A stretch of DNA of 64,000 bases from the NCBI GenBank assembly GCA_021732605.1, contig JAKFUS010000033.1:1-64000 (forward strand), read 5' to 3'. The notes under the pieces were generated by a model. It made no database searches. It worked only from the letters and a program-made list of their open reading frames with translations, and had not been told where the DNA came from. The DNA is from Betaproteobacteria bacterium (GTDB lineage Bacteria; Pseudomonadota; Gammaproteobacteria; Burkholderiales; SG8-41). Positions 29,426-48,230 of this stretch are shown here, piece after piece (position 1 is the first letter of the stretch; each line of letters opens with the position of its first letter). The translations under genes and the position numbers were made by a program.

Positions 29426-30508
29426 ATGAGCACCCCCGTCAAAGTCGGCATCGTCGGTCTCGGCCGCTGGGCCAAAGTACTGACCCGCGCCGCCAAAAAA
29501 TCGGACAAAATCCAGATCGTCGCCGGTTACAGTCGTTCGCAGGAAAAGCGTGATGCCTTCGCCAAGGAAATGGGCGTGGCCGCGGTACCTGACATGCAGG
29601 CGATGCTGTCCAATCCGGAAATCAAGGGCGTGATCCTGACGGTGCCGAATGAACAGCATCTGCCGATGGCCGAAATCGTCGCCAAGGGCGGCAAACATGT
29701 CTATACCGAGAAGCCGATTTCGCAGACCCTGGAAGACGGCCTGAAAATCGAGGCGCTGCAAAAACAGTACGGCGTCACCGTCACCGTCGGCCACAGCGCA
29801 CGGCTGATGGCCGGCATCCGCATCATCAAGGAAAAAATCGACGCCGGCGAACTGGGCCGTGTCGCCTTCATCGAGGCGAACTTCTCCAACGAACGTGCAC
29901 TGGAACTAACGCCACAGACCTGGCGCTGGTACAAGGATCGCGCCCCCGGCGGACCGCTGTCGCAACTGGCCATCCACCAGTTCGATGTGCTGCATCTGCT
30001 CGGCGGTGAAGTGCAGGAAGTGTCGTCAATGGCCTCCAAGCTGTCGCCGGTCGGCGCTGAAGTGGATGATCAGTCAATGACGCTGGTGCGTTTCAAGGAC
30101 GGCAAGGTCGGATATGTCGGTTCGTGCTGGACCTCGCCCGGCATTTTCGCGGTACGCGTGTTTGGCTCCAAGGGTCTGATGCACTACGAAATCGATTTCG
30201 GTACCTGGGATACGCCGCACCTGCTGCACAACAATTCCGTGCTCTACATCCAGCGCGGCAAGGACGGCTGGGCCAAACGCGAAGACATCAAGCTGCCGGA
30301 GTCCGACATGTTCCGCGCCGAGCTCGAGGCCTTCGCCGGCAGCTGCCTGTCCGGCAAAACAAATGAACTGACGGCGCACAACGGCAACGTCGCGGTGGCG
30401 ATGACCAATGCCGCGCTGAAGTCGATTGACCGCAAGGGTCTGTGTGTCACCATCGACGAAGTGATGGCTGACGCCCGCGCCAAAAACGACGCGAAACGCG
30501 CCGCCTGA
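29426..30508 (+). CDS. Gfo/Idh/MocA family oxidoreductase
   Basis: A 360-residue NAD(P)-dependent dehydrogenase. The N-terminal Rossmann fold opens with VKVGIVGLGRWAKVL. The catalytic EKP motif appears in YTEKPISQTLEDGL, and the C-terminal sheet domain has QLAIHQFDVLHLLGGEVQEV. The likely action is oxidation or reduction at a sugar or polyol carbon. The ATG at 29426 is preceded by CAGGAGCACC. It is the first gene of the operon controlled by the divergent GntR regulator. Confidence 0.92.
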   Translation: MSTPVKVGIVGLGRWAKVLTRAAKKSDKIQIVAGYSRSQEKRDAFAKEMGVAAVPDMQAMLSNPEIKGVILTVPNEQHLPMAEIVAKGGKHVYTEKPISQTLEDGLKIEALQKQYGVTVTVGHSARLMAGIRIIKEKIDAGELGRVAFIEANFSNERALELTPQTWRWYKDRAPGGPLSQLAIHQFDVLHLLGGEVQEVSSMASKLSPVGAEVDDQSMTLVRFKDGKVGYVGSCWTSPGIFAVRVFGSKGLMHYEIDFGTWDTPHLLHNNSVLYIQRGKDGWAKREDIKLPESDMFRAELEAFAGSCLSGKTNELTAHNGNVAVAMTNAALKSIDRKGLCVTIDEVMADARAKNDAKRAA

Positions 30509-30513
30509 ACGGC

Positions 30514-30671
30514 GGTAATTGGTGATTGGTAACTGGTAAATGGGCTCCAGCCCACCACCCTTCGCCAATCACCAGTTACCAATTACCAGTTACCAATCAC
30601 CAGTCACCAGTCACCAGTCACCAGTTACCAGTCACCAGTCACCAGTTACCAGTCACCAATCACCAATCACC
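30514..30671. repeat. Heptamer hairpin element H1
   Basis: The left arm has four heptamers (GGTAATT, GGTGATT, GGTAACT, GGTAAAT; 30514-30541). A loop starting GGGCTCCAGCCC follows. The right arm has fifteen tandem heptamers of type ARTYACC (30567-30671), complementary to the left arm. The element fills the gap from six bases after the Gfo/Idh stop to 13 bases before the next start. The right arm contains no stop codon in any plus-strand frame. Confidence 0.9.
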
Positions 30672-30684
30672 ATTGGGCAAAACC

Positions 30685-31482
30685 ATGACCCGCTACTTCA
30701 TAGACCTGACTCAGCCCGAAATCGCCGCGCAGTTGAAAAAAAATCCGCTGGTGATCCTGCCCGCGGGCAGCGTCGAACAGCACGGCCCGCACCTGCCCAC
30801 CGGCACCGATATCTATGCCGCCAATGTGATCGGCCATGCCGTCGCCGAGCGCATGGACGGCCTGGTGCTGCCGGGTGGACCACTGGGCGTGACACCGATG
30901 CACATGCCCTTCGAAGGCACCATCACGCTGACGCCGGATACCTATCAACGTGTCGTCACCGAGACCTGCGCCTCAACCGCGCAGCACGGCGCCAAGCGCC
31001 TGCTGATTCTCAACTGGCATGAGGGCAACATCCCGTCGCTGGCGATTGCATCCGAAAAATTGCATCGCGAAGTCGGCATGAGCGTAATCGTGGTCCAGGC
31101 CTGCTACGTCGCCGCCGAACTCTACGGCCACGACTGCGGCGGCCTGACCCACGGCGGCGAGATCGAAGCACTGGCGGTGCTGGCCTATCAGCCGGAGCTG
31201 GTGCACCTCGACCGCATTGAATATTCCTCCGACCACGGCCACGGCCGAAAATGGGATCGTCTGCGCCGCACGCGGAGTTATCAGCCGGTCCTGCGTGACA
31301 TCAAGACCATCGCTTCCACCGGCTGGTACGGCGCACCGGAACACGCCACCGCAGCGAAAGGTTTGAAGATGTTGAATGACATCGCCGATGCCATCGCCAA
31401 GGAATGCGGCGAGATTTTCGCGCTGCTTGACGAAGCACAGGGCGGCACCGCAGAAATTGAGCATTTGAAAATCGCGAGGTAA
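30685..31482 (+). CDS. Creatininase family amidohydrolase
   Basis: A 265-residue metal-dependent amidohydrolase of the creatininase/MftE type. Metal ligands are placed in ILPAGSVEQHGPHLPTGTD, LNWHEGNIPS and THGGEIEALAVL. Members hydrolyse cyclic amides or related bonds. The substrate here is unknown. The start at 30685 follows the heptamer element and has no clear Shine-Dalgarno sequence. The open frame runs upstream through the repeats, but that part is repeat-encoded and not conserved protein. Confidence 0.9.
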   Translation: MTRYFIDLTQPEIAAQLKKNPLVILPAGSVEQHGPHLPTGTDIYAANVIGHAVAERMDGLVLPGGPLGVTPMHMPFEGTITLTPDTYQRVVTETCASTAQHGAKRLLILNWHEGNIPSLAIASEKLHREVGMSVIVVQACYVAAELYGHDCGGLTHGGEIEALAVLAYQPELVHLDRIEYSSDHGHGRKWDRLRRTRSYQPVLRDIKTIASTGWYGAPEHATAAKGLKMLNDIADAIAKECGEIFALLDEAQGGTAEIEHLKIAR

Positions 31483-31491
31483 ATGATCGCC

Positions 31492-31551
31492 CCCCTCACC
31501 CGGCCTCTACTTCGTGGCAAGTGTTCCCTTGTCCCCGAAGGAGAGGGGCTG
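31492..31551. repeat. Degenerate intergenic repeat copy
   Basis: It starts CCCCTCACCC and carries GCAAGTGTTCCCTTGTCCCC and GAGAGGGGCTGA. It shares the CAAGTGT.CCCTTGTCCC string with 6472-6535. It lies in the 118-base gap between the creatininase and cupin genes of the operon. Confidence 0.5.
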
Positions 31552-31600
31552 AACAGAGATCAATTGCAATGATGCGCAATTAAACAGGAGTTTGTAATTC

Positions 31601-31969
31601 ATGGCCAAAGTCCTCACGCAAGTCGAAGCCAAAAGCATGGGCCTGCCCGGCCGCAAATCGCTGGAGATTGTGTCCGGCGAAAAAGGCGCACAGGCGGTCA
31701 CGCTGCGGCTGGTGGAAATCCCACCGGTCAAACCCGGCGACAGTCCGCGCGGCCGGCATTTCCACCAGGGCTTCGAGGAATGCATTTTCGTGATGTCCGG
31801 TGAAGGCTGCACTGAAGCCGACAGCGGCAACTATCCGCTGAAAGCGGGCGACACCATCCTGATTCCCTCGGGCGAAAAACACGCCACCCGCAATACCTGC
31901 AACGAACCGCTGGTACTGCTGTGTTTTTTCCCGGTGGCGGATATCTCGAAACAAACTCAAGAGCGGTAA
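31601..31969 (+). CDS. Cupin-domain protein
   Basis: A 122-residue single cupin barrel. Motif 1 is GRHFHQGFEECIFVMSGEG, with two histidines and a glutamate, and motif 2 is DTILIPSGEKHATRN, so a metal site is likely. Such proteins can be isomerases, dioxygenases or sensors of sugar acids. ACAGGAG precedes the ATG. The stop codon lies inside the first heptamer of element H2. Confidence 0.88.
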   Translation: MAKVLTQVEAKSMGLPGRKSLEIVSGEKGAQAVTLRLVEIPPVKPGDSPRGRHFHQGFEECIFVMSGEGCTEADSGNYPLKAGDTILIPSGEKHATRNTCNEPLVLLCFFPVADISKQTQER

Positions 31970-32067
31970 TTGGTAACTGGTGACTGGTAAATGGGCAGCA
32001 ACACCACCCGCCCTCACCAATTACCAATCACCAGTTACCAATCACCAGTCACCAGTCACCAGTCACC
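31965..32067. repeat. Heptamer hairpin element H2
   Basis: Same design as H1. Four left heptamers (GGTAATT, GGTAACT, GGTGACT, GGTAAAT; 31965-31992) are followed by a GGGCAGCAACACCACC loop and seven right heptamers of ARTYACC type (32019-32067). It supplies the cupin stop codon and ends five bases before the next ATG. The loop shares TAAATGGGC with H1. Confidence 0.9.
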
Positions 32068-32072
32068 AAAAA

Positions 32073-33050
32073 ATGAACATAGACGTCCTCTGCCTGCGCC
32101 CCGAAGCCGATTTCACCCGCGTCGGTGTCGCACCACCGAAAAATATCAACATCGCCTACCGCAAACCCGATGATGCCGACCTGCCCGCGCTAATGAAACA
32201 GGTGCGCGCGGTGATCATGCCGGCCGTCGGGCCCAAACTGCCCGCTGCGTTATTCGAAGGAACCACACTCAAGGTGGTGCAGATCACCGGCGCCGGCGTT
32301 GACCGGCTCGACGAGGCTGCACTGAAAAAACTCGGTATCCCCGTGGCCAACGTACCCGGTGGCAGCAATACCGCATTAGCTGAGTACACCACCGCTTGTG
32401 CGTCACTATTACTACGGCGTTTTGCCTGGGCTGATGCCGAAATCAAAAAAGGTAATTACGTCGCCTTTCGCAACCGGATGATGGCCGACAACCTCGCCGG
32501 CATCGACGGCGCCACCGTCGGCGTGGTGGGGATGGGTGTAATCGGCATTGCCGTCGCCCAGGCCTTTCACCGCATCGGCTGTCAGATTGTCTACTTCGAT
32601 CCGGCGCTGAAAGACAAGACCAAGGCCGATGCCATGAAAGCGCGCGGCATGACGCTGGACGAACTGCTGAGGACATCGGATGTGGTCACGTTGCATGTGC
32701 CGCTGATGCCTGCCACCACTAATCTGATCGGTGCCAAGCAGCTCGCGCTGATGAAACCCGAAGCCGTGCTGATCAACGGCGCGCGCGGCGGCGTGGTCGA
32801 TGAGGCCGCGCTGGCGCAGGCGCTGACCGACAAGCGCATTGCCGGCGCCGCCGTCGATGTCTACTCCATCGAGCCCGCGCCCGCGGACAACCCGCTGCTG
32901 CAACTGCAAGGAGAAGCTGCTTCACGCCTGTTATTGACGCCGCATGTGGCCGGTGTCACCCGCCAGTCGGCGGCCTTTCTGTTCAAAGTCTCCTGGGAAA
33001 ACGTCCAGCATGTGCTGAGCGGCGGTACAGTCGCGCACCGCGTCTACTAA
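32073..33050 (+). CDS. D-2-hydroxyacid dehydrogenase family protein
   Basis: A 325-residue NAD-dependent dehydrogenase. The coenzyme domain has TVGVVGMGVIGIAVAQAF; the catalytic arginine region is INGARGGVVDEAAL; the glutamate lies near YSIEPAPADNP; and the histidine is in LLTPHVAGVT. It interconverts a 2-hydroxy acid and its 2-oxo acid. The ATG at 32073 is taken because upstream sequence is heptamer repeat. No Shine-Dalgarno sequence is seen. It belongs to the GntR-linked operon. Confidence 0.91.
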   Translation: MNIDVLCLRPEADFTRVGVAPPKNINIAYRKPDDADLPALMKQVRAVIMPAVGPKLPAALFEGTTLKVVQITGAGVDRLDEAALKKLGIPVANVPGGSNTALAEYTTACASLLLRRFAWADAEIKKGNYVAFRNRMMADNLAGIDGATVGVVGMGVIGIAVAQAFHRIGCQIVYFDPALKDKTKADAMKARGMTLDELLRTSDVVTLHVPLMPATTNLIGAKQLALMKPEAVLINGARGGVVDEAALAQALTDKRIAGAAVDVYSIEPAPADNPLLQLQGEAASRLLLTPHVAGVTRQSAAFLFKVSWENVQHVLSGGTVAHRVY

Positions 33051-48105: not shown

Positions 48106-48230
48106 AGGATTGAGGAGCGAGGATTGAGGATTGAGGAAAAGCTGCCGGAATGGGCACAGCGCGGCATATCCCCTGTTTTCCCTCAATCCTCAATCCCCAA
48201 TCCTCCATCCTGAACTCACTCCTCACTCCT
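48106..48230. repeat. Heptamer hairpin element H3
   Basis: Plus-strand left arm: AGGATTG, AGGAGCG, AGGATTG, AGGATTG, AGGAAAA (48106-48140). Right arm: CTCAATC twice, CCCAATC, CTCCATC, CTGAACT, CACTCCT twice (48182-48230). The loop holds GGAATGGGCACAGCG. The heptamer sequence differs from H1 and H2, but the layout and the AATGGGC string are shared. It fills the mmsA-lutC gap: four bases after the mmsA stop to six before the lutC start. Confidence 0.85.

Follow-up and report, generated by a model that had tools for sequence, protein, structure and literature searches.

H1 and H2, two convergent heptanucleotide arrays of a genome-wide intergenic repeat family in a betaproteobacterium

Heptamer repeats in bacteria and the place of H1 and H2

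Tandem arrays of heptanucleotides have been described in several bacterial groups. Among the closest described systems is that of Rehm et al. (2015, PMC4692102), who reported 70 and 75 convergent heptamer pairs close to gene edges in two Xanthomonas genomes, with the unit GGGAATC (also GGGNATC), and few convergent pairs in Nostoc, where the unit is GGGGAYT. The G-strand of these repeats lies on the coding strand downstream of stops and on the other strand upstream of starts, mostly within 50 bp; few copies are found between divergent genes, and four units are preferred. The present analysis concerns two inverted arrays, H1 and H2, located between genes of one operon in a stretch of 64,000 nucleotides (the window) from a Betaproteobacteria bacterium (assembly GCA_021732605.1, contig JAKFUS010000033.1, positions 1 to 64,000). 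H1 and H2 belong to a genome-wide family of non-coding short-period repeats that fill intergenic gaps, mostly from edge to edge, and each element consists of two separate arrays of the heptamer GGTRAYT (ARTYACC on the other strand), pointing away from the flanking genes around a unique spacer.

The GGTRAYT elements share with the repeats of Rehm et al. the tandem heptamers, the intergenic location, the many copies, the convergent pairs and the placement at gene edges. The sequence-only reading of the window had supposed the gene-abutting inverted form to be undescribed; because convergent gene-abutting heptamer pairs were described in Xanthomonas in 2015, H1 and H2 are a known kind of repeat with a new unit. 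This unit differs by one position from that of Nostoc and by two from that of Xanthomonas, and its consensus contains GG only, without the GGG run, and therefore gives no classical quadruplex. A further difference is that the arms of the GGTRAYT elements are unmatched, and the sister species often carries another unit at the same gap.

Other described repeats are similar in part. In Beggiatoaceae, TAACTGA repeats lie just before starts that have few Shine-Dalgarno sites (MacGregor 2015, PMC4679880). They resemble the present elements in being heptamers a few bases before starts where Shine-Dalgarno sites are rare, and in a unit that is one mismatch from GGTRAYT after rotation, whereas GGTRAYT arrays are mostly inverted pairs at both gene edges. 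Geobacter metallireducens harbors 49 copies of four- and five-unit heptanucleotide elements, intergenic as well as intragenic (PMC2700814); four tandem heptamers are common to both, but the unit GGGACCG and the intragenic copies differ. The TMECO intrastrand triplex motifs (CCCTCTCCC..., about 34-37 nt; PMC4666352) are likewise intergenic and form some inverted pairs, but they are a triplex motif and not a short-period array; hairpins of the CCCTCTCCC type occupy the neighbouring gap in some congeners, and in the sister species, G007, they lie within or next to other arrays. Repetitive extragenic palindromes (REP) contain one conserved short palindrome of 20-40 bp with a tetranucleotide tag, GTAG or CGTC. 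Unlike REP and their REP-associated tyrosine transposase (RAYT) systems, GGTRAYT arms vary in unit string and length, and their loops are unrelated; unlike miniature inverted-repeat transposable elements (MITE), the loops of 37 GGTRAYT pairs look unrelated, apart from those of H1/H2 and a few that contain AAACC. Of six heptamers reported in the literature, three differ from GGTRAYT by no more than one mismatch (6.15% of all heptamers qualify), a closeness that is suggestive only, since the six are those come across and some of their units are degenerate. No report of the GGTRAYT unit, or of unit replacement at fixed gaps, was found in the literature searched, which was mostly without subscription journals; the unit, the independence of the arms and the replacement of units at fixed addresses appear to be new.

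Structure and genome-wide distribution of the elements

Direct reading of the left arm of H1 gives GGTAATT, GGTGATT, GGTAACT and GGTAAAT (30514-30541), followed by GGGC, and that of H2 gives GGTAATT, GGTAACT, GGTGACT and GGTAAAT (31965-31992). The four GGTRAYT-type units claimed for each left arm are thus present, with the qualification that the fourth, GGTAAAT, is a variant of the consensus. The right arms, with 15 and 7 copies, and the hairpin form were borne out by direct reading and by predicted folds: the H1 RNA hairpin is predicted at -53.5 kcal/mol (z -5.0) and that of H2 at -42.4 kcal/mol (z -6.5), and none of 200 shuffles was as good in either case. Both loops begin with TAAATGGGC, as had been noticed earlier, and GGTRAYTGGTAAATGGGC occurs exactly in the genome only twice, in H1 and H2, with two further places that differ by one base. 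When the window was searched for two consecutive ARTYACC units with at most one mismatch, all 26 matches fell in H1 and H2 (chance mean 0.08). The upstream gene ends in TGA, and H1 follows 5 bases behind this stop. H2 begins 5 bases before the end of the cupin gene, so that its first GGTAA supplies the cupin stop codon. The array ends 12-13 bases before the next ATG in H1 and 3-5 bases before it in H2. No consensus terminator site (GC-rich stem plus U-run) was found at H1 or H2, and the whole window gave no Rfam match at gathering scores.

The genome of the window (3.48 Mb, 75 contigs) contains many other copies, which the sequence-only reading had proposed to search for: three consecutive ARTYACC units occur at 306 places, and the reversed control at none. 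A sequence-model search gave 155 matches, of which the 150 listed form 64 clusters, all examined. Since 150 of 1269 first-look candidates were scored, and 150 of the 155 matches were listed, the census totals are lower bounds; arms and gene edges were called by our own scripts with a simple codon-usage gene caller. GGTRAYT elements occupy at least 65 gaps with at least 103 arms, as 37 inverted pairs, 16 gaps with a G-strand arm only, 11 with a C-strand arm only and one with two G arms; three of the 65, at contig ends, have one flank only. The order of the arms is fixed: in 37 of 37 inverted pairs the G-strand arm is on the left and the C-strand arm on the right, and none is reversed. Some arrays were observed at or near contig ends (C66:1-28, C53:18761-18790 with the contig end at 18793, and C8:127-151), and the assembly is therefore probably broken at some arrays.

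The arms are anchored at gene edges. For G arms (n=54) the median distance is 4 bases to the left gene and 71 to the right gene, and for C arms (n=46) it is 3.5 bases to the right gene and 64 to the left. Among the arms with both flanks, 93 of 100 lie closer to the edge they belong to than to the opposite one, irrespective of gene direction (87/100 and 80/95 under stricter gene calling), and the rule is kept in 19 of 24 single-arm gaps. In none of the 65 gaps was an arm flagged inside a called gene, with overlaps of gene ends of up to 19 bases. The element gaps (n=62) comprise 47 co-directional, 11 convergent and 4 divergent ones, and the gaps without elements in the same stretches (n=238) comprise 178, 27 and 33, respectively; the depletion in divergent gaps (4/62 vs 33/238) is not significant (p 0.13).

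This anchoring is accompanied by particular features at starts and stops. Shine-Dalgarno sites (four-base match) are rare at abutted starts: 2 of the 31 starts with an arm within 15 bases have one, compared with 99 of 292 other starts (p 9e-4). Contact or overlap with the gene is seen for 28 of the 56 arms at stop edges and for 4 of the 47 at start edges, and in 11 of the 56 the array opens exactly five bases short of the gene's end, so that GGTRA in the first unit provides the stop. As reasoned from the sequences, the G strand of GGTRAYT has stops in all frames and the C strand has none. Stops in three frames were considered as the cause of the orientation and set aside as not general, the Nostoc and Xanthomonas units lacking this property.

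Five positions of the unit are nearly fixed and R and Y vary, counting units that start with GG and are followed by GG; the third position is T in 623 of 654 counted units and G in 25. Short arms dominate, with a peak at 4-5 units (by rounded length, 19 and 25 of 103 arms have four and five units, respectively). Among arms not longer than 40 bases the four unit types have nearly equal counts (43, 43, 39, 35), and 20 of 102 adjacent pairs consist of identical units (0.25 expected), against 172 of 308 in longer arms. The slippage that the sequence-only reading thought likely thus fits the long arms, which are as homogeneous as slippage would leave them, and not the short ones. Given homogeneous long arms and mixed short arms, it seems that arms begin as about four mixed units and that the long ones were later expanded by slippage.

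The two arms of an element do not match each other. Their R/Y choices agree no better than those of arms paired at random (mean z 0.79 vs 0.97 +/- 0.15; a mean at least this high arose in 443 of 500 shuffles, and 27 of the 37 pairs yielded a value), and arm-swapped hairpins are equally stable (mean rank of real pairs 0.52 for the inner 28 bases and 0.46 for the outer; 35/37 pairs). A hairpin under selection was looked for by unit-string matching and arm swapping, and neither gave a signal. A slight excess of shared unit strings was found in the 65 of 83 runs used, with 13 four-unit strings shared (6.2 +/- 2.6 by chance; 13/1000 shuffles reach it) and 133 three-unit strings (111 +/- 11; 27/1000), because of which some copying between arms is possible.

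The loops of the 37 pairs, judged by eye and by motif count, show no likeness between copies except for H1/H2 and a few with AAACC. Of the 74 arms in pairs, 12 have this motif next to the loop (mean of shuffles 2.5, maximum of 300 shuffles 7; here and below only base composition is preserved); it lies outside the arms in 5, and its reverse complement lies inside in 9, the loops being short. Single arms carry it in 5 of 29 cases (shuffled 0.3), and in G007 it is found in 13 of 100 arms (shuffled 2.8, maximum 8), with 2 outside and 3 in reverse. At the arm/loop junction AAACC is a minority feature, enriched across different unit families in both genomes.

The features of the locus are collected in Table 1. 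Two further observations concern the window. The gap between the creatininase and cupin genes (31483-31600) resembles a CCCTCTCCC-type hairpin plus an insertion, with a plainer form in G005. A second convergent heptamer pair, with the unit GGATTGA (AGGATTG / CCTCAAT), occupies most of the gap between two minus-strand genes at 48106-48230.

Table 1. H1, H2 and the surrounding genes, in window coordinates
Feature	Position	Strand	Remark
Gfo/Idh/MocA-type oxidoreductase gene	29426..30508	+	upstream of H1; start is the gene caller's choice
H1 left arm	30514..30543	+	G-strand GGTRAYT array, 4 units, the fourth GGTAAAT
H1 loop	30544..30564	none	GCTCCAGCCCACCACCCTTCG
H1 right arm	30565..30672	-	G-strand on minus; 15 perfect ARTYACC units at 30567-30671
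Creatininase-family gene (PF02633)	30685..31482	+	behind H1
Cupin-domain gene	31601..31969	+	ended by H2
H2 left arm	31965..31994	+	4 units; cupin stop codon inside first GGTAA
H2 loop	31995..32013	none	
H2 right arm	32014..32069	-	7 perfect ARTYACC units at 32019-32067
D-2-hydroxyacid dehydrogenase family gene	32073..33050	+	downstream of H2

The same gaps in related species

The family is distributed patchily: array places were found in 17 of 61 genomes and, in a class-wide sample, in 4 of 143, the genome of the window (G000) being included in both counts. The reversed control matched in 3 of the 143 class-sample genomes (G068, G107, G144) and in G022 of the 61-genome set, and other heptamer arrays therefore exist in the class sample. 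The gene row of the operon has a DNA match in 21 of 21 genomes of the genus (weak in G018, short in G004 and G012). A tree of the creatininase (60 rows) places G007 as the sister of G000 (95/91), followed with weaker support by G020 and G005.

With one genome per species compared, and G001 and G019 aside, the repeats in the H1 and H2 gaps differ between species. H1 is absent from G007, where the gap is of 18 bases, and the gap of G020 is of 21; in G005 it is filled by a 7/8-mer array and in three members of another clade by heptamer arrays. Judged by eye, congeners with a short gap at the H1 site mostly have a purine-rich ribosome site, and the creatininase start at 30685 lies about 2 to 8 codons inside their start. 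The H2 gap contains CACAGAGNN hairpins in G005, G006, G007, G016 and G017, CAGGAT hairpins within CACAGAG units in G010 and G014, other repeats in G015, a one-sided array in G020, and GGTRAYT in G000 and in G002, where it is mixed with 8-mers; no inverted repeat was found there in G011 and G013. Over the whole set of loci compared, the H1 gap falls below 35 bases in 66 of 98 cases and contains an inverted repeat in 14 (one being a run of N); for the H2 gap the corresponding counts are 17 and 27 of 61. Genome rows and named records partly duplicate each other in these counts. The loop as a leftover of the ancestral gap was considered, and by eye was not seen for H1 or H2. The operon is also present in metagenome bins titled Bordetella parapertussis (L224, L232, L237-L239 and others), which look like mislabelled environmental betaproteobacteria.

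In 1.19 Mb of G007 and loci L131 and L155, 16 of the 62 element gaps of G000 were matched to an ortholog; by eye, 3 of these contain the GGTRAYT heptamer (one mixed with 8-mers), 9 a different unit and 3, including H1, no comparable array, and one is ambiguous. The different units are 8-mers (GTGATTRR or GTGAACRR) or 9-mers (CGCCAAG or CACAGAG), and a CCCTCTCCC hairpin lies inside or beside the array in 3 of the 9. Convergent order is also found in these families, in 15 of 15 neighbouring opposite pairs of the 8-mer GTGAACRR (G007 and G005) and in 40 of 40 pairs of the 9-mer CACAGAGNN, among the 150 of 524 places listed. Of the 617 gaps of G007 that measure 40-600 bases, 44 contain an inverted repeat of some kind, counting REP-like and MITE-like ones (expected from mixed pairs, 0.05%); among divergent gaps the count is 0 of 128, against 44 of 489 others (p 5e-5).

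Mixed arrangements of units were also observed. Concentric nesting occurs in G007 (L180, L176, L183), with GTGAACGG arms outside and a CCCTCTCCCC hairpin inside the loop, and in the H2 gap of G014 and L223, with CACAGAG outside and CAGGAT inside. Two arrays (L083:4377-4511, L092:2471-2570) drift from GGTGATT/GGTGACT heptamers to the 8-mer GGTGATTA and then to the heptamer GGTGATG.

How the elements may have arisen and what they may do

We regard H1 and H2 as probably being slippage-prone intergenic repeats that are tolerated at gene borders, with translational effects as a by-product. New elements would start out as arms of about four units, made by a process that needs no Y1 (RAYT-type) transposase; the arms would afterwards lengthen or shorten through slippage, and elements would persist where coding sequence and promoters stay undestroyed. 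A weaker downstream start, an upstream translation stop and a foldable mRNA spacer would be likely by-products in the operon and not the reason for the element.

Several points weigh against this reading. The edge rule is broken by 5 of the 24 single arms, and the gene edges, starts above all, come from a simple codon-usage caller. An inverted repeat or a tandem of 7-10 bases is found in 12 of the 16 orthologous G007 gaps against 73 of the 617 G007 gaps, a set that may include the orthologs; this score-based 12 is not the 12 counted by eye, since the score includes a duplicated gene end and passes over a short heptamer array. Inverted repeats alone give 6/16 against 56/617, and tandems alone 7/16 against 28/617. 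Inverted or tandem structure could thus be selected at these gaps. Finally, the view of the elements as tolerated repeats draws in part on a lack of evidence that they have a function.

The sequence-only reading suggested that the hairpins could control mRNA stability or the ratio of products in the operon; on this view the inverted arrays would fold in the mRNA, copy number acting as a dial. The predicted folds of H1 and H2 are strong, most element gaps are co-directional and the inverted-repeat gaps of G007 avoid divergent genes, all of which would suit such a control. This role was not sustained for the operon: elements also lie between convergent genes, the co-directional share is equal in gaps without elements, there is no terminator-like site, and the sister species lacks H1 and has an unrelated hairpin repeat in its H2 gap. 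The arms are not co-adapted in the tests of matching and swapping, which disfavour a selected RNA hairpin, and we consider this control unlikely.

A second proposal is that both DNA ends at a break in the gap gain G-strand heptamers at their 3' ends before rejoining, through telomerase-like or other templated end addition, which would leave outward, independent arms with the unique junction as the loop. It predicts the fixed order in the three unit families, among the places parsed, as well as arm independence, the even unit mix of short arms and unrelated loops. Any inherently inverted repeat would give the same order, though, and the excess of shared unit strings suggests arm copying; AAACC next to the loop is common to a minority of arms, and no enzyme stands behind the process, none having been sought. 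We judge it quite unlikely. A broader form, in which sequence-independent 3'-end strand addition builds inverted arrays outward from gene edges, with address and convergent architecture persisting while the unit (7-, 8- or 9-mer) is swapped between sister species, would trace the heptamers of cyanobacteria, Xanthomonas, Beggiatoaceae and Helicobacter back to one process; it is a speculative extension of low probability.

Arrays could also offer many binding sites to a protein that recognizes the repeat in DNA or RNA (a translation regulator, a nucleoid or a boundary protein), and MacGregor (PMC4679880) suggested a protein-binding role for the TAACTGA repeats. The nearly fixed unit positions, with R and Y free, and the location close to starts and stops agree with such a platform, but there is no candidate protein, none having been sought, and in the sister species the corresponding gap is often occupied by another unit; we consider this reading very unlikely. 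A REP/RAYT-like or MITE-like element moved by a transposase is highly improbable: the arrays are interspersed, inverted and intergenic, and G000 has both the most array places and the most Y1_Tnp matches (8) of the genus, but loops are mostly unrelated between copies, a Y1 transposase as the mover is weakened by 4 of 9 array-bearing congeners without a Y1_Tnp match (G020 with 42 places, G004, only 79% complete, with 24, G008 with 4 and G002 with 2), and G006, G014, G016 and G017 have a Y1_Tnp match and no array places.

Rehm et al. (2015, PMC4692102) closed with the remark that the functional role of heptamer repeats is still to be elucidated. The genus described here is well suited to this question: across some twenty related genomes it shows the same gaps in different states, either empty or occupied by GGTRAYT or by another unit. 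Its data make the hypothesis of a hairpin function testable, and the comparison of the arms counts against it. If the replacement of units at fixed addresses holds, it would point to a general mechanism that fills bacterial gene gaps and removes ribosome-binding sites.
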